Of a DNA stretch of 64,000 nt, positions 27,326-54,122 are shown one piece after another (the first letter of the stretch is position 1; every line of letters starts with the position of its first letter). The notes under the pieces were generated by a model that was given only the letters and a program-made list of their open reading frames with translations, was not told the origin of the DNA and searched no databases. The stretch comes from Kineothrix sp. MB12-C1. GTDB taxonomy: Bacteria; Bacillota; Clostridia; Lachnospirales; Lachnospiraceae. The translations under genes were made by a program, and so were the position numbers. The stretch spans positions 1,116,001 through 1,180,000 of the forward strand of contig NZ_CP132957.1 of NCBI RefSeq assembly GCF_030863805.1, in the 5' to 3' direction.

Positions 27326-28207
27326 TTATTTCCACTTTATAACTCTTTTCTGCAATTGCATAACCAATGTATTCAGTATGGTGACTACAATAGCAATCCA
27401 TATGATTCCTGCAATAACTCTTGTATAATCCGCATAGTCAGAATACTTTTTCACAAAGTAGCCGAGTCCGGCACTCGCTCCCAGCATTTCTGCTCCGGTC
27501 AGACAGAGCATTGCCGATGTCAACGAAATGGATAACCTTCCGATTACATCCGGCAGAGAATAGGGAAGAATAATTTTAAAAAGCATTGTCGGCAAAGATA
27601 CTTCCATGGCTCTCGCAGAATCGATTATCTTTGGATCTACACTTCCCGCTTTGGCAATCATACTCATGAAATTAGGCCAGAACACAGCCGAAAAGATAAT
27701 AAAAATAGATGCATGACGAAAGGATGGCATAAGCGCCACAACATATGGTGTGTACACTAAGGGCGGAATACTGCTTATCACTCTTGTGATGGGAAGAAGC
27801 GTATCTCTCAATCTAGGTACATATCCAACAAAAAGCCCTCCAAAAATCCCCAATATCATCGCATAAGCGATTCCTTGCAATAATATAATCATAGAACTGC
27901 TAAGTCCGGCAATCAAATCCATCCAGTTCAGATAAAAAATATGAAATACCTTCTCCGGTGAAGGCAGCAATACCGGATGGGTATATCCCAATTTCGCCAC
28001 AATTTCCCAAAGTATCAAAACTGCGTATACGACCTTTATGATATCTGAAACACTTTTCTTTTTCGTTCTCCATAGGGTAAAAAGGTAAATACATTCCATA
28101 AGCAGTATGGCTGTTACAAAGGATACGGGTACCTCAGTACCTGCCGTACTTGGCAGAAATAGAACCAATCCCAACAATGCCAGAAACAGGAGGCTAGAAA
28201 TTATCAT
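27326..28207 (-). CDS. ABC transporter permease, SsuC/TauC-like
   Basis: Membrane subunit of a sulfonate/nitrate/taurine-type importer. 293 aa with about seven hydrophobic segments and the characteristic permease loop DPKIIDSARAMEVSLPTMLFKIILPYSLPD preceding ISLTSAMLCLTGAEML. Overlaps the upstream ATPase gene by 4 bases (ATGA), so translation is coupled. Last gene of the operon led by the poly-Cys leader. The substrate is presumably an organosulfur compound, from operon context. Confidence 0.88.
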   Translation of the reverse strand: MIISSLLFLALLGLVLFLPSTAGTEVPVSFVTAILLMECIYLFTLWRTKKKSVSDIIKVVYAVLILWEIVAKLGYTHPVLLPSPEKVFHIFYLNWMDLIAGLSSSMIILLQGIAYAMILGIFGGLFVGYVPRLRDTLLPITRVISSIPPLVYTPYVVALMPSFRHASIFIIFSAVFWPNFMSMIAKAGSVDPKIIDSARAMEVSLPTMLFKIILPYSLPDVIGRLSISLTSAMLCLTGAEMLGASAGLGYFVKKYSDYADYTRVIAGIIWIAIVVTILNTLVMQLQKRVIKWK

Positions 28208-28998
28208 ATCATTATCTTCTCCATTCCGATTTTTTCAGCCATACTTTTATAAAACAGATTCATTAACTGTTTATGGAGCTGTACAAACTCCTGGCTCCCT
28301 ATTAGTTTCTCTTTTGTTCTGGGCCTTTCCAATTCCACTTCGATGTCCGCCTGAATGTCCTTGTCTCCTAAAAACAGAATACGGTCCGAAAGAAGGATTG
28401 CCTCTTCAATATCATGAGTCACAAAAAGTACCGTTTTTTTCTCTTCTTTGGAAAGTCTGCTAATCATCTCCTGTAAGGCACTCCTGTTTTTCGGATCGAC
28501 TGCGCCAAAGGGTTCATCCATAAGAAATATATCCGCATTTGAGGCCATCAGCCTGGCAATAGCGACCCTTTGCTGCATTCCTCCTGAGAGCTGTGAAGGA
28601 TATTTCTTTTTGGCATCGCCGAGCCCGACCTTATCCAGATAATATTCTGCTCTCTCCAGCATTTCCTTACGTGTTCCCTTATATTTGCTCTGCTTCATGG
28701 CAAATGTTATATTATGGGTGGCATCCATCCATGGGAATAAAGAATAGTGTTGAAATACTACTCCTCTCTCCGTTCCTGGACCCTCTATTTTCTTCTCATC
28801 AATGTATACGGCCCCGCTGCTAGCCTTATTGAGGCCCTCTATTACACTTAAGAGAGAACTCTTGCCGCAACCGGAAGGACCTATCATGCAGACGAACTCC
28901 CCTTCTTTCACAGAGAGATTCACCTTTTCAAATGGTGCAAATCCTCCTTTTTCATCCTCATATATCAGTGTTAAATTTTCAAGTCTGATTTTATCCAT
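28204..28998 (-). CDS. ABC transporter ATP-binding protein, SsuB/TauB-like
   Basis: ATPase powering the SsuC-like permease. Walker A GPSGCGKSS, Q-loop in VVFQHYSLFPW, signature LSGGMQQR, Walker B IFLMDEPFGAVD and the switch His in VTHDIEEA are all present. 264 aa, typical of the nitrate/sulfonate ATPase group. It lies 59 bases after the binding-protein gene and overlaps the permease gene. Confidence 0.93.
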   Translation of the reverse strand: MDKIRLENLTLIYEDEKGGFAPFEKVNLSVKEGEFVCMIGPSGCGKSSLLSVIEGLNKASSGAVYIDEKKIEGPGTERGVVFQHYSLFPWMDATHNITFAMKQSKYKGTRKEMLERAEYYLDKVGLGDAKKKYPSQLSGGMQQRVAIARLMASNADIFLMDEPFGAVDPKNRSALQEMISRLSKEEKKTVLFVTHDIEEAILLSDRILFLGDKDIQADIEVELERPRTKEKLIGSQEFVQLHKQLMNLFYKSMAEKIGMEKIMI

Positions 28999-29057
28999 TG
29001 CATTCCAACCTCTCTGTGAATGTCATAAATTAAATATAATATCCCGATCCGACTTTC

Positions 29058-30095
29058 TTAATTGCGGGCCAAGGAAGAATAAAATGTATTGTCCGGATTC
29101 TTATCGGCAAGCTGTTTTAAAGCCTCCTCATAAATACTTGTATCCACATGCTCAGCCACATCGATATCACCGGTAAAGTATCCACTGCCCACAAGAGAAT
29201 TATAATAATCAATAATTCCCTGTTTGTTGGGGTCCAGAGTCATAATTGTTCTGTTTTCAAACAGGTATTGCCTTACATATTCTTCCGTTTGATTGGAATA
29301 AGAAGCTAGAAAGCTCACAATTTCATCCCGATTAGCTTCATCTTGGTAATACTCCAGAGCTCTAATATTGGCCCTTGTAAATGCGATCAACTCCTCTCTC
29401 TTATTGTTGAGTGTAGTTCTGGATGTCACCTGGCGGCAGCATACATAGAGGGGTTCTAATTCTCCTACTTCATATACAATCTCTACGGAATCTTCATATT
29501 TATTTGCAAATTCTACCGGAAGAAATCCTAAATCTGCTTCGCCTTTTTTTACCGCTTCCGCAACATTGATTTGACTGTCCACTTCTATTACCTGAATAGA
29601 ATCCACATCGATTCCCTGTTTTACCAGATACCCTCTGGAAACCACCCATGCGGTATCCGCGCGAACTGTTGCGATGGTGATTCCTTCATAGTTCGTAATG
29701 TCCTTATATATTTCCACATTTTCCGGTAAAGAGATAATGGCACCGCCTTCTGCCGCCGTCCCTTCAAAGATTACAAGATCGGAACCGTTAGCGATAAAGT
29801 TTAAGTCAGGAACAATACCCGTTCCCCAGATGTCCACTTCTCCCTTATCCGTGCTGATGGAGGTGAGCGCCGCTGTAGCATCCTGGATTTCAACAAATTC
29901 AAAATCCACGCTTTCCTCCTCATAATAACCAAGATGGTCGGCCAGCAGTACTACGGCAGTTCTTATGGTTCCCGGGGTAATACCGAACTTCAGGCTTCCT
30001 GCACTCTCTTCACCGGAATCTTTTCCGCAGCCTGCAAACAATAATCCTAACGATAATACAAGTGCCGATGCCCATATTCTCTTAGATTTCTTCAT
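29058..30095 (-). CDS. ABC transporter substrate-binding lipoprotein, SsuA/NrtT-like
   Basis: Extracytoplasmic binding protein of the NMT1/SsuA family with lipobox LFAGC about 20 residues from the start. The family pattern LKFGITPGTIRTAVVLLADHLGYYEEE follows, with later VSRGYLVKQGIDVDSIQVIEV. The ATG at 30095 follows AGAGGAG by 9 bases and lies inside the end of cysK (14-base overlap), so it is coupled to it. The ligand is unknown: sulfonates are the family default, but neighbours (cysteine synthase, thiol-transferase-like enzyme) suggest some organic sulfur compound. Confidence 0.87.
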   Translation of the reverse strand: MKKSKRIWASALVLSLGLLFAGCGKDSGEESAGSLKFGITPGTIRTAVVLLADHLGYYEEESVDFEFVEIQDATAALTSISTDKGEVDIWGTGIVPDLNFIANGSDLVIFEGTAAEGGAIISLPENVEIYKDITNYEGITIATVRADTAWVVSRGYLVKQGIDVDSIQVIEVDSQINVAEAVKKGEADLGFLPVEFANKYEDSVEIVYEVGELEPLYVCCRQVTSRTTLNNKREELIAFTRANIRALEYYQDEANRDEIVSFLASYSNQTEEYVRQYLFENRTIMTLDPNKQGIIDYYNSLVGSGYFTGDIDVAEHVDTSIYEEALKQLADKNPDNTFYSSLARN

Positions 30096-31062
30096 AGTCT
30101 TCTTCTCCTCTTTCTTCCCCTTCTTCATATAAATCGGATGAGAGATATCTCTCTCCTGAATCCGGAATGATCGTTACGATAGTCTTACCTTTATTCTCCG
30201 GCCTTTTTGCTACTTTTACCGCAGCATATAGGGCAGCTCCGGCAGAAATTCCTATGGATATTCCTTCTTTTCTTGCGCTTAGTCTTGCAAATGCATAGGC
30301 ATCCTCATCTGTAACCGTGATAATCTCATCAAATAAGCTCTCATCCGTCACAGGTGGGGTTGCCCCGCCGCCGATTCCCTGAATCTTGTGAGGCCCTGGT
30401 TCGCCTCCTGACAGGACCGGACTTCCGGCAGGTTCTACAGCGATGACTTCAATTTTTGGATTTCTACTTCTGAGATATCTTCCGGTTCCCGAAATTGTAC
30501 CTCCTGTACCGGAGGAAGCAACGAAGATATCCACCTTTCCATCCGTATCTTCCCAAATCTCGGGACCTGTTGTCTTTTCATGGGCTCCGGGATTATCAGG
30601 ATTACTTCCCTGTCCCGGTATAAATACATCCGGTATCCTTTCCGCAATCTCCTTTATCCGTTCCCCTGCTCCTGCCATATTCAGTTCAGCCTTAGTCAAT
30701 TCAACCTCTGCACCATATGACTTTAAAATAGTAATTCTTTCTTTACTCATATTTTCAGGCATAGCGATGATCGCTTTATATCCCTTTGCCGCTGCAGCCA
30801 TGGCGAGCCCAATTCCTGTGTTCCCGCTTGTTCCTTCCAAAATAGTAGCTCCGGGCCTCAGCTTCCCTTCTTTCTCCGCATGCTCAATCATATTTTTTGC
30901 AATCCGCGATTTCACACTGAATCCGGGGTTAAGAAATTCCAATTTTCCAATAATTCTTCCATAGGTCTCGCATTCTTTCTCGATATTATGGAAAGCTACC
31001 AAAGGCGTATTCCCCACTAGTTCCAAAATATTGTCATATACTTTTCCCATATGCACAATCAC
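30082..31062 (-). CDS. cysK: Cysteine synthase (O-acetylserine sulfhydrylase)
   Basis: PLP enzyme making cysteine from O-acetylserine and sulfide. The PLP lysine is in NPGFSVKSRIA; the usual form is SVKDRIA, so Asp is replaced by Ser. The phosphate-binding loop GTSGNTGIGLA, the substrate loop and SGTGGTISGTG are intact, and the C-terminal PDSGERYLS is typical. Length 326 aa including a short acidic tail. Start uncertain: GTG at 31062, GTG two codons in (best spacing from GGAAGGG) or ATG four codons in. It lies 10 bases after the GST-like gene. Under control of the upstream Cys attenuator (inference). Confidence 0.93.
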   Translation of the reverse strand: MIVHMGKVYDNILELVGNTPLVAFHNIEKECETYGRIIGKLEFLNPGFSVKSRIAKNMIEHAEKEGKLRPGATILEGTSGNTGIGLAMAAAAKGYKAIIAMPENMSKERITILKSYGAEVELTKAELNMAGAGERIKEIAERIPDVFIPGQGSNPDNPGAHEKTTGPEIWEDTDGKVDIFVASSGTGGTISGTGRYLRSRNPKIEVIAVEPAGSPVLSGGEPGPHKIQGIGGGATPPVTDESLFDEIITVTDEDAYAFARLSARKEGISIGISAGAALYAAVKVAKRPENKGKTIVTIIPDSGERYLSSDLYEEGEERGEEDYEEI

Positions 31063-31071
31063 ACCCTTCCG

Positions 31072-32151
31072 TTACCTGTAAAACTTCTCATTCGGTGTAG
31101 CGCTCAATTCCTTTCTGCTTTGAGGCTGTGACCAATACTCTTCATATGGAATCTGGTCTACAAAACGAGTATTGAAGTCTGCAAAAAGATTCTCCTTATT
31201 CCCTCTTCCCTTTGAAAAATCCCTGAAATATGTATTATTTCTAAACGCTGGAATCTCATATAAATCCCTCGCATATGCCCAAATATTTTCGTAATCCACT
31301 ACACGCTTTTGCTGAGGACCGAGGTTTCTGTAATAATGAGTATCCCATCTTGCTAATGTTACAAAGAACCGGATATCGCTATCCGTCACATAATCCCCAA
31401 ATAAAAATCTATTCCTGGACAATCGCTCCTCCAATTCATCCATTGCACGAAAGAAATCTTCATAGGCTTCCTGATATGCTGTCAAGGATTGGCAGAAAGC
31501 CATGCGATAATGTGCGTTATTAATATTGGGGAACAACCAATCGTTAAACTCATCGATTTCTTTGCGAAGCTCCGATGGATATATATCCGGTGCATCCTTA
31601 CTTTGAAACGGCTTAAATGCGACTTCCAAATAATTTGTCAGCCTGTGGTAATCATTGTTTACCACCTTCTTTGTAGTCACATCCACCAAAGCAGGAACTG
31701 TGCATCTTCCTTCATATCCCGAATCTGCATTGTAGTATGCCTCGCTTAAAAATTTAATTCCTAATACCGGATCTTCAAAATTTTCATCGTCCGGAAAACC
31801 CCATCCGTAAATATTGCTCTCACCTGTGGAATCCACAATATTTACACTTATAGCATCCTCTAATCCAAGCAGTTCCCTCACAATAGATGCTCTGTTGGAC
31901 CAATGGCAGCCTTTTGCCCAAAGCAAATGGTATCTTCCGCTCTCTGCCTTTAGTTGCCCTTCTTCCTCCCCGAAAGCCGCTGTGAAATGGTTTGGCTGCC
32001 TTACAAAGGCACCTCTTTCATCTATTTCGTTCTTTATTTCCTTGGGCCTTGGCTTCGCCCCTCTTTCCACTGCAAAGCGCTCCGCCTGCTCATCCGTATA
32101 AAGGACTGTACCTTCCTTTTCTGTTCTCTTTCCTATTTCGCAATATGACAT
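31072..32151 (-). CDS. Glutathionyl-hydroquinone reductase-like GST-family protein
   Basis: Related to YqjG/ECM4-type glutathionyl-hydroquinone reductases, which use a cysteine to take glutathione off aromatic conjugates. The active-site region reads LLWAKGCHWSNRASIV, with Cys in the place of the CPW motif of the family. The C-terminal helical domain has FLFGDYVTDSDIRFFVTLARWD. 359 aa is slightly longer than the usual 310-330, partly through the N-terminus. It starts with ATG after AGGAG. Most Clostridia lack glutathione, so its natural thiol partner is unclear. First structural gene of the sulfur operon. Confidence 0.83.
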   Translation of the reverse strand: MSYCEIGKRTEKEGTVLYTDEQAERFAVERGAKPRPKEIKNEIDERGAFVRQPNHFTAAFGEEEGQLKAESGRYHLLWAKGCHWSNRASIVRELLGLEDAISVNIVDSTGESNIYGWGFPDDENFEDPVLGIKFLSEAYYNADSGYEGRCTVPALVDVTTKKVVNNDYHRLTNYLEVAFKPFQSKDAPDIYPSELRKEIDEFNDWLFPNINNAHYRMAFCQSLTAYQEAYEDFFRAMDELEERLSRNRFLFGDYVTDSDIRFFVTLARWDTHYYRNLGPQQKRVVDYENIWAYARDLYEIPAFRNNTYFRDFSKGRGNKENLFADFNTRFVDQIPYEEYWSQPQSRKELSATPNEKFYR

Positions 32152-32204
32152 AATCTTTTTCTCCTATTATTTTATTTTAGAACATCGTTTCTCCAAAGGG
32201 CCTT

Positions 32205-32275
32205 TATTCTATTCCGCGTGTAGCTGCGCATCCTACACGGAGTGCTTTTATTCTATAGGATTAACAATTTTATAC
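32205..32275. repeat. Dispersed repeat family A, copy 2, in the sulfur-operon leader
   Basis: Contains CCGCGTGTAGCTGCGCATC, shared with 8052-8116 and 48886-48955, and can form a hairpin (CGTGTAG with CTACACG). The 153 bases between the intron 3' end (32305) and the GST-like start hold nothing else recognisable. Confidence 0.5.
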
Positions 32276-32304
32276 TTTAATGTTACAAGGTGTTTCCTTT
32301 AGAA

Positions 32305-34159
32305 ATCGAGTAGGAGGGAAATTTAAATACATTTCCCGACCTCTCACACCACCGTGCGTACCGTTCGGTACACGGCGGTTCAATCAACTTAACAATTAAC
32401 GTACCTTTCGGTGTAGTAATCTAACATGGAGATTAGTCCAAATGCGGCTAATCTCTTGTTTGTAATGACAAAGTTTAATGCACCACTACATACATGTGCA
32501 ATTCTTGCTCCACTGTATGCTATTGCAAATGCATCCTCCTTGTTCATTCCTAGTTTCACCAAGTTTTCTGCCCTGTTTTGCGCGGTTTTCCAATGTTTCC
32601 ATATGCACATACGAATTCTAAATCTAATTCTTTTGTCTGTAGCTCGGCATAACTCTTTCATACTTCCAATTTTAAAGTAGTTTATCCAGCCTCTGATAAG
32701 TTGATTTAACTTTTCAATTTTGTAGCTGTTACTTACTCCCCAACTACGGCAAGTCAATTCTTTCATTCGTTTCTTGAATTTCATAACTGACTTGATGTGT
32801 GGTTTTGCCTTGTACTGATGCGAGTATCTGTCGAAGTAAAAGCCAAAACCAAGATATTTTAGCCCTTGTGGTTTATCCACTTTGCTTTTGGTTATGTTTA
32901 CTTTCAACCCTAGTTTTTCTTCGATAAAACGTGTTAGGTTTCTCATCACTCGTTTTGCCGACATTTCACTTCCCACCATAATAATACAGTCGTCTGCGTA
33001 TCGGACAAAGCTTAGACCTCTTTGTTCCATTTCCTTATCTAGTTCGTTCAACATGATGTTTGCAAGAAGTGGTGAAAGATTCCCTCCTTGTGGTGTTCCT
33101 ATCACTGATTCCTTATATTCATCATCTACTATAATTCCGCTAACCAGGAATTTTCGGATAATAGAGATAACATCTCCATCTTTGATAGTTCTTCCTATTA
33201 GTGTCATCAGCTTATCATGGTTTACTGTGTCAAAGAACTTTTCTAAGTCAACGTCAACTATCCAATCATTTCCGTCATTCATCATATCCAATGCCGTTAT
33301 GATTGCTTGCTGTGCATATCTGTTTGGTCTGAATCCATAACTATGCTCATGAAACTGCTCCTCGTAGATTGGTGTTAATACCTGTGCTATCGCTTGTTGT
33401 ACAAATCGGTCTGTTACTGTTGGTACTCCTAGGTTTCTGACACCACCGTCTGGCTTTGGTATCTCCACTCTGCGTACAGGCAGAGGTTTATATTTTCTTT
33501 CCCTCAGCTGTTCCTTGATAATTTCGCCGTTCTTTTCAAGATGTTCTCCCAGTTCTGTGTACTTCATATCGTCCACTCCCTCTGCACCTTTATTTCGTAC
33601 GACTTGCAGATATGCGGTATTGAGATTCTCTTTACTTAATATCTGCTCCATTAGACTACTTGTGTCCATGCGTTGTTTCCTTTCCGTCCCGCTAAATTTG
33701 GCCATCCTTTTCCCGATTGGTTACGGCAGATGTTGTCATTTCTGCAATACGAGACCTACTTCAACTGATTGATTGTTCACCCCTTCACTCCATTCCCATT
33801 ACAGAAACTTCTTCGCTACTATGGGATCGGCTGACTTCTCACAGTTCGTTGTTACTCGGCGAATGAAACCGCTGTGAGACCTCCACGCTTAAGATGCACG
33901 CTCTTTCCCTCCATATATCCGCCGCATTTACTCTGCTTCTACAAATGTGGTAGTAATTAGACTTTGTTGCTTTTAGCCAACTTATCTCTCGAAGCCTAGC
34001 CTTATATGCGATTTCTGTCCGTCGGACCAGAGGTTTGCCTTCAGCTTCCTTCAGATTCCACCTCACGGCGGACACCCTTGCTGTTCAGCTATACATTTCC
34101 CACTACCTGGGCATGTTCGGGGACTTGCACCCGTTAGAGCGCGCCCATGGCGCGCAAAC
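32305..34159 (-). mobile_element. Group II intron, class C-like, full length
   Basis: On the minus strand the element runs from GTTTGCGCGCC (34159; the usual 5' end is GUGYG, so one change) through the conserved domain I text (CTAACGGGTGCAAGTCCC, GGTGTCCGCCGTGAGGTGG, AATCTGAAGGAAGC) and the maturase gene. It then runs to domain V (32381-32340, GAACCGCC...GGTGGTGTGAGAGG) and a domain VI hairpin ending CTCGAT at about 32305. The RNA is about 1.85 kb. The 5' boundary lies directly after a T-run of an intrinsic terminator, the known target preference of class C introns. The exact 3' boundary is good to a few bases. Confidence 0.88.
32389..33669 (-). CDS. ltrA: Group II intron reverse transcriptase/maturase
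   Basis: Intron-encoded protein that splices and mobilises the surrounding intron. RT motifs in order: PVRRVEIPKPDGGVRNLGVPTV (RT0-2), YGFRPNR, DVDLEKFFDTVNHD, TPQGGNLSPLLANI and the catalytic YADDC. Then come a maturase X domain (GWINYFKI) and a C-terminus ending LDYYTERY. There is no HNH endonuclease domain and the length (426 aa from the ATG with GGAAAGGA 8 bases upstream; a start 12 codons earlier has worse spacing) matches class C proteins such as that of the Geobacillus GsI-IIC intron. All RT motifs look intact. Confidence 0.95.
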   Translation of the reverse strand: MDTSSLMEQILSKENLNTAYLQVVRNKGAEGVDDMKYTELGEHLEKNGEIIKEQLRERKYKPLPVRRVEIPKPDGGVRNLGVPTVTDRFVQQAIAQVLTPIYEEQFHEHSYGFRPNRYAQQAIITALDMMNDGNDWIVDVDLEKFFDTVNHDKLMTLIGRTIKDGDVISIIRKFLVSGIIVDDEYKESVIGTPQGGNLSPLLANIMLNELDKEMEQRGLSFVRYADDCIIMVGSEMSAKRVMRNLTRFIEEKLGLKVNITKSKVDKPQGLKYLGFGFYFDRYSHQYKAKPHIKSVMKFKKRMKELTCRSWGVSNSYKIEKLNQLIRGWINYFKIGSMKELCRATDKRIRFRIRMCIWKHWKTAQNRAENLVKLGMNKEDAFAIAYSGARIAHVCSGALNFVITNKRLAAFGLISMLDYYTERYVNC

Positions 34160-34160
34160 T

Positions 34161-34190
34161 AAAAAATAGGTGCCATATGCATGACACCTA
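34161..34190 (-). terminator. Intrinsic terminator of the poly-Cys leader (attenuator)
   Basis: On the minus strand TAGGTGTCAT-GCAT-ATGGCACCTA forms a 10-bp stem with one G-T pair and a 4-base loop, followed by six T residues. It lies 20 bases after the leader peptide stop. Its 5' arm and loop (ATGCATATG, 34182-34174) are complementary over 9 bases to CATATGCAT inside the leader gene (34245-34237), giving a competing antiterminator. The group II intron begins one base after the T-run. Confidence 0.85.
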
Positions 34191-34210
34191 CTGAACGCTC
34201 ACCACTTCTC

Positions 34211-34330
34211 TTACTTACGGATAGTTTCAGGGCACAATGCATATGAAAAATAAACTGTATTCATACAGGCAGATTTACAGCAGCAACATACCCCATTCAT
34301 ATTTTCTATTTCTCTCATTAAATTCTTCAT
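34211..34330 (-). CDS. 39-residue leader peptide with four consecutive cysteines
   Basis: ATG at 34330 is preceded by GGAGAGGG at 9 bases; the frame encodes 39 residues (MKNLMREIENMNGV, then CCCCKSAC, then Tyr/Phe-rich residues and CPETIRK) and stops at 34211. Codons 15-18 are all Cys (34288-34277). It has its own near-consensus promoter and is followed by a terminator that can be disrupted by pairing with codons 29-34. Downstream on the same strand, past an intron, lies a cysteine synthase operon. This is the arrangement of a ribosome-stalling attenuator that senses charged tRNA-Cys; poly-cysteine leader ORFs doing this are known in mycobacteria. A small secreted or modified peptide is the less likely alternative. 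Confidence 0.8.
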   Translation of the reverse strand: MKNLMREIENMNGVCCCCKSACMNTVYFSYALCPETIRK

Positions 34331-34385
34331 AGACTTTTTCCCTCTCCATATTGTATACTATTCCTACTGGTTTAATATGTTTTGA

Positions 34386-34414
34386 ATTATATTACTCTTT
34401 CACAATAAAGTCAA
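34386..34414 (-). promoter_or_regulatory. Promoter of the poly-Cys leader and sulfur operon
   Basis: On the minus strand TTGACT (34414-34409), a 17-base spacer and a perfect TATAAT (34391-34386). Transcription would begin near 34379, about 50 bases before the leader ATG. The upstream sequence is AT-rich. Confidence 0.85.
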
Positions 34415-34508
34415 CAACTATCCGGTTATCGGCTAATAGGTATTTCGTATAAGAAATTATAGTTTTTTTCTATAACACTTTTTTTCTATATTATATTTTA
34501 TTGCATAG

Positions 34509-35239: not shown

Positions 35240-35731
35240 TTATGTCAAAATAGATGCAAGGTTTTTAAGGTCAATTTTATCAACTTCCCTAAGCTCATAT
35301 CCACTATGAAATAATTTCTGAGCTTCTGCAGAAATACACGGGATAATTCGCTCTTCAAATAAAGCGCTCGAAAACCATTCTGCTTTAAAATCATACCAAT
35401 CATCATTTAATCCGGCTTGTTTTGCACTTCCATCTTCACTGATTATTAAAGGGTGTATATCTATATATCCCAATTCCGGATGATACAGTTCAATACGTGA
35501 CGGACGCCAGTCAGTTATAATTGTATAGCCTTTTACGTTTAAAGCATCTAATAAAATATCTGTGAACTTTCCATCAAAATCCACATCAATATCTCTGTGC
35601 ACTCTGTTTTGCTTCCCAAGTAAAATATCTATTCCCCAGCCTCCATCTATCCAATATTCTATTTTTAAGCCATCCAGAAAATTCAAAACTTCCATTAAAT
35701 TTTCCTTGTTGGTGATTTCCTTTTTTGCCAT
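35240..35731 (-). CDS. Lincosamide nucleotidyltransferase-like protein (Lnu(A)-type)
   Basis: Small nucleotidyltransferase that in the LinA/Lnu(A) family adenylylates lincomycin and clindamycin. The N-terminal motif YWIDGGWGIDILLGKQ followed by HRDIDVDFD contains the expected acidic metal ligands. The region WRPSRIELYHPELGYIDIHP and the C-terminal CISAEAQKLFHSGYEL closely follow what I recall of Lnu(A). The length of 163 aa matches (161 aa). AAGGAG lies 5 bases before ATG. Whether it confers resistance is unproven; related chromosomal proteins of unknown substrate exist. It sits just beyond the end of the rRNA/tRNA operon, a place where acquired genes often lodge. Confidence 0.75.
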   Translation of the reverse strand: MAKKEITNKENLMEVLNFLDGLKIEYWIDGGWGIDILLGKQNRVHRDIDVDFDGKFTDILLDALNVKGYTIITDWRPSRIELYHPELGYIDIHPLIISEDGSAKQAGLNDDWYDFKAEWFSSALFEERIIPCISAEAQKLFHSGYELREVDKIDLKNLASILT

Positions 35732-53797: not shown

Positions 53798-53870
53798 TAA
53801 TAATCTGTAATATACACCGCCCTGCTGCCATCCTCTCTAAGGACTTGCTGCCGACATGCTTCTTACATTT

Positions 53871-54004
53871 CTTCTCTCATCCAGACTTTACTGTCGGTTT
53901 TGGAATTGCACCAAATCAACCGCTTTACATAATGCAAAACGGGTCGCGGACTTTTACCGCCGGTAGGGAATGACGAATTGCTCCGTTTCACCCAACCCCG
54001 AAGA
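53871..54004 (-). ncRNA. FMN riboswitch (RFN element)
   Basis: Conserved blocks in order on the minus strand: CTTCGGGG-TTGGGTG, CATTCCCTACCGGCGGTA, AGTCCGCGACCC, GGTGCAATTCC, CCGACAGTAAAGTCTGGATG and AGAGAAG. It lies upstream of ribU with an intrinsic terminator between, so FMN binding should reduce ribU transcription. Confidence 0.97.
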
Positions 54005-54122
54005 ATTTTCTCTTTTTACTTGTTCCTTTATCATAATATGACTATCATATATTTTTGTCAAGAACTTCCTTCTCTATTCTTGTAAATTCAGTTCCCTCAC
54101 TGTTACGTATGAAAATCCATTT

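Follow-up and report, generated by a model that had tools for sequence, protein, structure and literature searches.

We analysed a 64,000-nt stretch of the Kineothrix sp. MB12-C1 genome (the window), in which the features at issue all lie on the minus strand. A sigma-70-type promoter (34386..34414; TTGACT at 34414-34409, a 17-nt spacer and TATAAT at 34391-34386) matches 11 of 12 consensus bases and is followed by a Shine-Dalgarno sequence, GGAGAGGG (34347-34340), and by a leader ORF of 39 codons (34211..34330; ATG at 34330, stop at 34213-34211) whose peptide is MKNLMREIENMNGVCCCCKSACMNTVYFSYALCPETIRK. Four Cys codons in a row (TGT-TGC-TGC-TGT, CCCC in the peptide) occupy 34288-34277, and further Cys codons begin at 34267 and 34234. 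Behind the ORF stands an intrinsic terminator with a 12-pair stem (34192-34165), a loop of 4 and a T-run to 34161 (-15.0 kcal/mol); together with the 3' arm of the antiterminator described below it takes up 34161..34195. Each of these elements had been placed correctly in a first-pass annotation made from the letters of the window. Judged by its sequence, the ORF has the start, ribosome site and clustered Cys codons looked for in an attenuator leader, and the terminator lies after it and before the operon genes. A consensus scan ranked the leader promoter highest among 7 promoter-like sites in 2.5 kb; since 6.3 are expected per 2.5 kb, the count itself is uninformative.

The operon opens with a glutathione-S-transferase (GST)-like gene (31072..32151; GST_C_2 over its cut-off, and GST_N_2) and continues with cysK, encoding cysteine synthase A (30082..31062; TIGR01139, 403.5 bits against a cut-off of 351), and an ABC importer (27326..30128) made up of a binding protein (29058-30128), an ATPase (28204-28998) and a permease (27326-28207). 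The importer is sulfonate/taurine/nitrate-like, its best NCBIfam scores fall below the cut-offs, and its substrate assignment is putative. With cysK over its cut-off, the genes behind the leader, past the intron and repeat described next, concern the same amino acid as the clustered codons. Elsewhere on the minus strand the window carries a lincosamide nucleotidyltransferase-like gene that adjoins a tRNA cluster (35240-35731; best match Lnu(AN2), 207 bits, under the cut-off of 340) and an FMN riboswitch (53865-54009).

The intron and repeat behind the terminator

One A separates the terminator T-run from a group II intron of 1.86 kb (32305..34159, minus strand), recognised by the Rfam families group-II-D1D4-3, group-II-D1D4-1 and Intron_gpII, the last ending at 32305; its 3' junction was taken from other copies of the repeat that follows it and its 5' junction was deduced. 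It encodes a reverse transcriptase/maturase of 438 aa (32389..33705, minus strand; RVT_1, GIIM; TIGR04416, 417.6 bits against a cut-off of 300). As in group IIC introns, the element is placed right behind an intrinsic terminator and its protein has reverse transcriptase and maturase domains without an endonuclease domain; we call it IIC-like, a class assignment by place and domain content only.

The intron is followed by a 55-nt repeat core (32250..32304, minus strand), which has 21 further matches across the genome, partial ones included. In most of the copies that we read, the repeat ends are palindromic (TTCTATAGGA ... TCCTATAGAAT), and 8 of 11 copies read sit, by eye, directly behind a hairpin and a T-rich run, so that the repeat is placed as if it were terminator-seeking. 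This placement makes the boundary between terminator and repeat the apparent entry point of the intron. Together, the two elements lengthen the distance from terminator to operon by about 1.9 kb or more. The first-pass annotation had described an attenuator ahead of a cysteine synthase operon; the order holds, but the two are not adjacent, as the intron and the multicopy repeat that intervene had gone unnoticed.

Competing folds of the leader RNA

The same annotation had drawn attention to a 9-base complementarity between the leader ORF and the terminator. The complement is exact (CATATGCAT at 34245-34237 against ATGCATATG at 34182-34174), but 9 bases understate the antiterminator, whose 5' arm lies inside the ORF (34226..34246) and whose main helix has 20 pairs (34246-34226 with 34195-34173), with 5 further pairs in the energy fold. 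In the free leader, 34294-34274, which spans the Cys codons, is predicted to pair with 34249-34229 and so to mask the antiterminator segment (regions 1 and 2, 34229..34294; a minimum-energy fold of a single sequence, with no covariation), and the predicted probability of the terminator is 0.99-1.0. The predicted layout is that of trp leaders, with 1:2, 2:3 and 3:4 pairings.

Ribosomes cover about 12-13 nt past the first base of the A-site codon. We modelled a stalled ribosome by covering the RNA to 13 nt past that base and leaving out the RNA upstream; a ribosome placed at the Cys codons is then predicted to free the antiterminator segment. For stalls at codons 13-24 the fold with the antiterminator came to -23.3 to -20.1 kcal/mol versus -25.3 to -19.0 with the terminator. 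The terminator was better by 1.4-2.0 kcal/mol at codons 13-16 and by 0.7-2.8 at codons 18-20, the two were equal at codons 17 and 21, and the antiterminator was better by 0.4-1.1 at codons 22-24. The comparison of structures that had been proposed in the annotation yields two mutually exclusive folds and an equilibrium that favors the terminator at codons 13-16 and 18-20. As the antiterminator is mostly no stronger than the terminator at equilibrium, it must win by forming first, and folds of the nascent RNA allow this: a transcript ending at 34174, which lacks the 3' arm of the terminator, adopted the antiterminator at all five stall positions computed (codons 14, 15, 16, 17 and 21). When the RNA upstream of the ribosome was left free to pair, the terminator won at all 30 positions computed; we judged that fold to be unrealistic, and using the one with upstream RNA excluded was our choice.

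How far the leader exceeds chance was gauged in the window plus 20 regions of relatives chosen for their GST genes (360,064 bases in all), with 40 shuffles of the non-ORF stretches as the null model for ORFs. Short ORFs (up to 60 aa) that follow a Shine-Dalgarno-like site and encode CCC or a longer run numbered 4 (the window, L077, L080 and L083) versus a shuffle mean of 0.025, and those encoding at least CCCC numbered 2 versus none in the 40 shuffles. A leader ORF with such a Cys run is far beyond chance. The pairing is a different matter. An exact complement of at least 9 nt arose in 21 of 5000 shuffles, shuffled sequences reached the duplex energy of the antiterminator in 155 of 2000 cases (dinucleotide shuffling) and 194 of 2000 (codon shuffling), and its nascent fold in 63 of 500; the leader as a whole has no folding advantage over shuffled sequence (z -0.01). 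The window's own pairing, taken alone, is only modestly better than shuffled sequence, which is suggestive; the strong evidence for an attenuator of this design is comparative.

Cysteine leaders in related genomes

Relatives of the GST-like gene were present in 6 genomes of a set of 61 and in 21 of a set of 397, the window's genome counted. When 26 GST-operon regions were fetched and searched, as had been suggested in the annotation, for Cys-codon ORFs ahead of sulfur genes, leaders with runs of Cys or spaced Cys were found in 9 of them. Six came from a strict scan: L016 (MCCQHGK), L077 (two Cys leaders, one with CCC ahead of cysK), L080 (CCCRM), L083 (CCCCCC), and L088 and L093, in which the Cys codons are spaced. 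A relaxed scan added L076 (CASCCCCCR), L089 and L090. No leader was accepted in the other 17 regions, several of which are short contigs, and no terminator was found for the leaders of L016 and L076. ORFs in L018, L084, L086 and elsewhere were dropped from the count for want of a convincing ribosome site or place, and matches of the MCCCH type proved to be out-of-frame pieces of a GST gene. In L016 (14727-14656, minus strand) a segment past the MCC leader ORF can base-pair with the following gene's ribosome site, which suggests translational control there.

Searched against 16 genomes of the genus, the peptide of the window leader found only itself below E 0.07, so that it has no ortholog in the 15 congeners searched. 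A search of genome contigs for the ssuA-like protein gave one contig, which begins too late to show a leader. Relatives of ssuA occur in 24 of 358 family genomes, own included; 20 of their regions were fetched and scanned, G128 came from an earlier fetch, and G377 and G392 were left out. No ortholog of the window leader was found ahead of the ssuA-like genes of the closest two relatives (G175, on a contig with 3.5 kb there, and G186). Four ORFs in the ssuA regions satisfied the Cys rule (L232, L238, L243 and L245), none of which resembles the window leader. The ORF in L238 lies away from the ssuA relative, and that in L243 is a 59-aa secreted-looking ORF ahead of the ssuA relative. L232 (8386, minus strand) has a CCC leader ahead of what is, by eye, the start of a nitrogenase-like gene, perhaps a sulfur-salvage reductase. 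In L245 (6134, minus strand) an 18-aa ORF ending in CCIC lies 152 nt ahead of an ATPase-binding protein-permease operon that is related to the importer of the window. Rfam matches on the relatives fell outside the leaders and were microRNA-type chance matches plus one sRNA.

One group of leaders, with Cys-Cys-Arg-Met, forms a sequence family that we define here as R1. A search with one such leader as the query gave further members; 11 were aligned, and a covariance model was made. At E 0.1 the model was found in 50 of 397 genomes of the family, and at E 0.001 in 20 of 344 from the order; 12 of these 20 belong to two other families, and the two genome samples overlap in part. The window does not match R1 up to E 10, and its genome holds no R1 at E 0.1 under strict filters. 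The window leader appears to share the design of R1 and not its sequence, and the expectation that relatives would conserve the leader holds for the design, which recurs with covariation, and not for this particular leader. Rfam gave no match on the leader in eight R1 loci at E up to 1, and NCBIfam none for the window leader, three R1 leaders and three other leaders.

A de novo consensus fold of the 11 members returns the antiterminator, with 10 pairs. With a second helix of 5 pairs added, 93.3% of the cells in the unfitted alignment of these members are paired versus at most 46.9% when the arms are slid, and 5 pairs are changed on both sides versus at most 2. When 64 matches in 63 loci were aligned to R1, 13 of 15 pairs covaried through compensatory changes and 60 cells were changed on both sides versus 12.9 +/- 3.1 in shuffled and at most 14 in slid alignments, figures from a model-fitted alignment that leans to the structure. 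Comparative sequence evidence of this kind shows the coding segment after the Cys codons pairing with the 5' arm of the terminator in R1. The antiterminator arm lies inside the ORF with Cys ahead of it in 61 of the 64 copies, a count that leans upward because the leader ORF was chosen by a Cys-favoring score; in the three others (L183, L184 and L185) no Cys precedes the arm. In 45 of the 61 leaders the arm starts 14 nt past the first base of the last Cys codon, a strict spacing that the R1 model partly selects for; by the footprint given above, a ribosome whose A site holds that codon would have its front edge at about this point. Of 7 R1 members folded, 6 adopt the antiterminator in the RNA that a stalled ribosome would free; left whole and free, the leader favors the antiterminator in 5 and the terminator in 2, unlike the trp leader.

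The first protein downstream of R1 falls into one of five clusters in 53 of 64 cases: 32 are of the MetY/Cgs type, 14 are binding proteins, 3 GSTs, 2 ABC ATPases and 2 ABC permeases. The names were taken from NCBIfam on 10 representatives. A metY motif is present in 26 of the 32 MetY/Cgs-type genes (26 of the 64 R1 copies), and assignments to cystine or methionine transport are guesses, as the binding protein and transporter parts score under the equivalog cut-offs. Ten further proteins are singles, cysK and a (2S)-3-sulfopropanediol dehydratase among them, and one match has no gene. In L161 (599-3064, plus strand) an R1 leader precedes a gene for (2S)-3-sulfopropanediol dehydratase, which ties the switch to organosulfonate use. 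MCMC or CMC occurs in 18 of the 64 chosen leader ORFs (for example in L136, L145 and L153), an alternation of Met and Cys codons hinting at joint sensing of cysteine and methionine.

Proposed attenuation by Cys codons and its alternatives

We favor the possibility, and put it at roughly three in four, that the window leader is a ribosome-mediated transcription attenuator which reads charged tRNA-Cys. When cysteine is plentiful, the ribosome would pass the Cys codons and cover the antiterminator segment; the terminator would then form and RNA polymerase would stop ahead of the operon. When charged tRNA-Cys is scarce, the ribosome would halt at CCCC or at Cys22 and cover region 1, and 34246-34226 would be free to pair with the 5' arm of the terminator before its 3' arm is made. 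The polymerase would then read across the group II intron and reach the GST-cysK-ABC operon. We infer this course of transcription, stalling, readthrough and passage across the intron to the operon from the parts and their order, the alternative pairings predicted by folding and the recurrence of the design with covariation in relatives. The competing folds and this recurrence also support the trp-type logic that had been proposed for these codons.

The terminator is separated from the ATG of the first structural gene by the 1.86-kb intron and the repeat, and the locus could be a former attenuator that these two have uncoupled, its operon now being driven by a promoter within the intron or behind it. 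We consider this improbable: promoter, Shine-Dalgarno sequence, ORF and terminator all look intact, everything lies on one strand, readthrough RNA would keep the operon's own ribosome sites even if unspliced, and the single promoter-like site on the leader strand between intron and operon matches 9 of 12 consensus bases, which is chance level.

It could also be that the peptide itself is the agent, whether as a nascent arrest peptide or as a small Cys-rich metal- or redox-binding peptide, in place of tRNA sensing at the level of codons. The recurrence of C-R-M in R1 (43 of 64 leaders, the Arg codon, out of six that exist, being CGA in 42 of the 43, as in L125, L126 and L128) would suit such a role. 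Against it, the leaders outside R1 (the window, L076, L077 and L083) share, by eye, little besides Cys codons, and in R1 the RNA that encodes S-R-A covaries with the terminator arm; we regard this alternative as quite remote. Still harder to credit is a chance Cys-rich ORF ahead of the ordinary terminator of the upstream acetyltransferase gene. The pairing in the window is, as noted, within reach of shuffled sequence, but the ORF has a promoter of its own with 11 of 12 consensus bases, none of the 40 shuffles gave a CCCC leader, cysK lies in the operon behind it and relatives show the same design.

In the trp attenuator of E. coli, ribosomes stall at codons of the regulated amino acid, and 1:2, 2:3 and 3:4 pairings decide the outcome. 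An attenuator at the window leader would have both the stall codons and the three pairings in common with it. Unlike in trp, region 2 of the window lies inside the leader ORF, before its stop, so that translation itself would clear it. The amino-acid genes of Firmicutes are generally regarded as controlled by T-boxes or riboswitches, and T-box RNAs read tRNA charging and control a terminator; at the window leader, sensing would be by the translating ribosome. No T-box (RF00230) was found in the window at the gathering score or in 32100-34500 at E up to 1, and the genome has 14 T-box matches elsewhere, 9 of them over the cut-off. Within the accessible part of one paper, most aminoacyl-tRNA synthetase genes of Firmicutes use T-boxes and none uses classical attenuation (PMC1262725).

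There is precedent for leaders of this kind in other bacteria. Mycobacterial Cys leader ORFs are reportedly leaderless, whereas the window leader has a Shine-Dalgarno sequence. The annotation's remark that poly-Cys leaders are established in mycobacteria agrees with published work: as far as the available portions of the articles go, runs of Cys codons in leader ORFs precede sulfur genes, as in the window, in the cys operons of Mycobacterium and P. acnes and at cbs of B. longum (PMC1262725), and Cys leaders have been described in mycobacteria and their relatives (PMC13236596). In what is accessible of the former, no conserved terminator hairpin was found for the Mycobacterium leaders (PMC1262725), whereas the window has an intrinsic terminator. 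The uORFC-8-2 motif of Rhodobacterales, which lies ahead of cysS, is likewise a leader ORF with tandem Cys codons for which ribosome-mediated attenuation has been proposed; its stem holds the Cys codons and is followed by a U run consistent with an intrinsic terminator (PMC8632094, from the portion available). It differs, by the same portion, in belonging to Alphaproteobacteria, in occurring exclusively ahead of cysS and in having two Cys codons, usually at positions 14-15 (PMC8632094). The window leader comes from another bacterial group and has four Cys codons in a row, an antiterminator arm inside the ORF, and genes of sulfur assimilation and transport, not cysS, behind it. In the literature covered, for the most part papers open without subscription, no Cys leader was found for Lachnospiraceae or their order.

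A broader reading is more tentative, and we would put the odds somewhat against it. In it, the order that includes the window's genome has an undescribed attenuator regulon for cysteine, or perhaps for cysteine and methionine, that uses the stalled ribosome's leading edge as a ruler: the arm starts there, 14 nt downstream of the last Cys codon's first base, and the near-invariant Cys-CGA-ATG tunes the pause. The variant in the window would also gate a group IIC-like retroelement, with transcription of its reverse transcriptase gene largely confined to cysteine starvation. A covarying cysteine attenuator in at least three families of one order, ahead of metY, of amino-acid uptake genes, of cysK and once of organosulfonate genes, would show how sulfur is rationed in these bacteria, and it offers a defined RNA element for testing. 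In the window, the intron lodged behind the leader would be a mobile element that has come naturally under nutrient control. A comparable arrangement, by the accessible part of the report, is a group IIC ribozyme beside a SAM-I riboswitch terminator, where again a terminator-seeking intron is lodged behind a regulatory terminator (PMC9481103). The regulator in that case is a riboswitch (PMC9481103), whereas in the window a Cys leader attenuator would take its place, and the intron would lie within the 5' region under its control.
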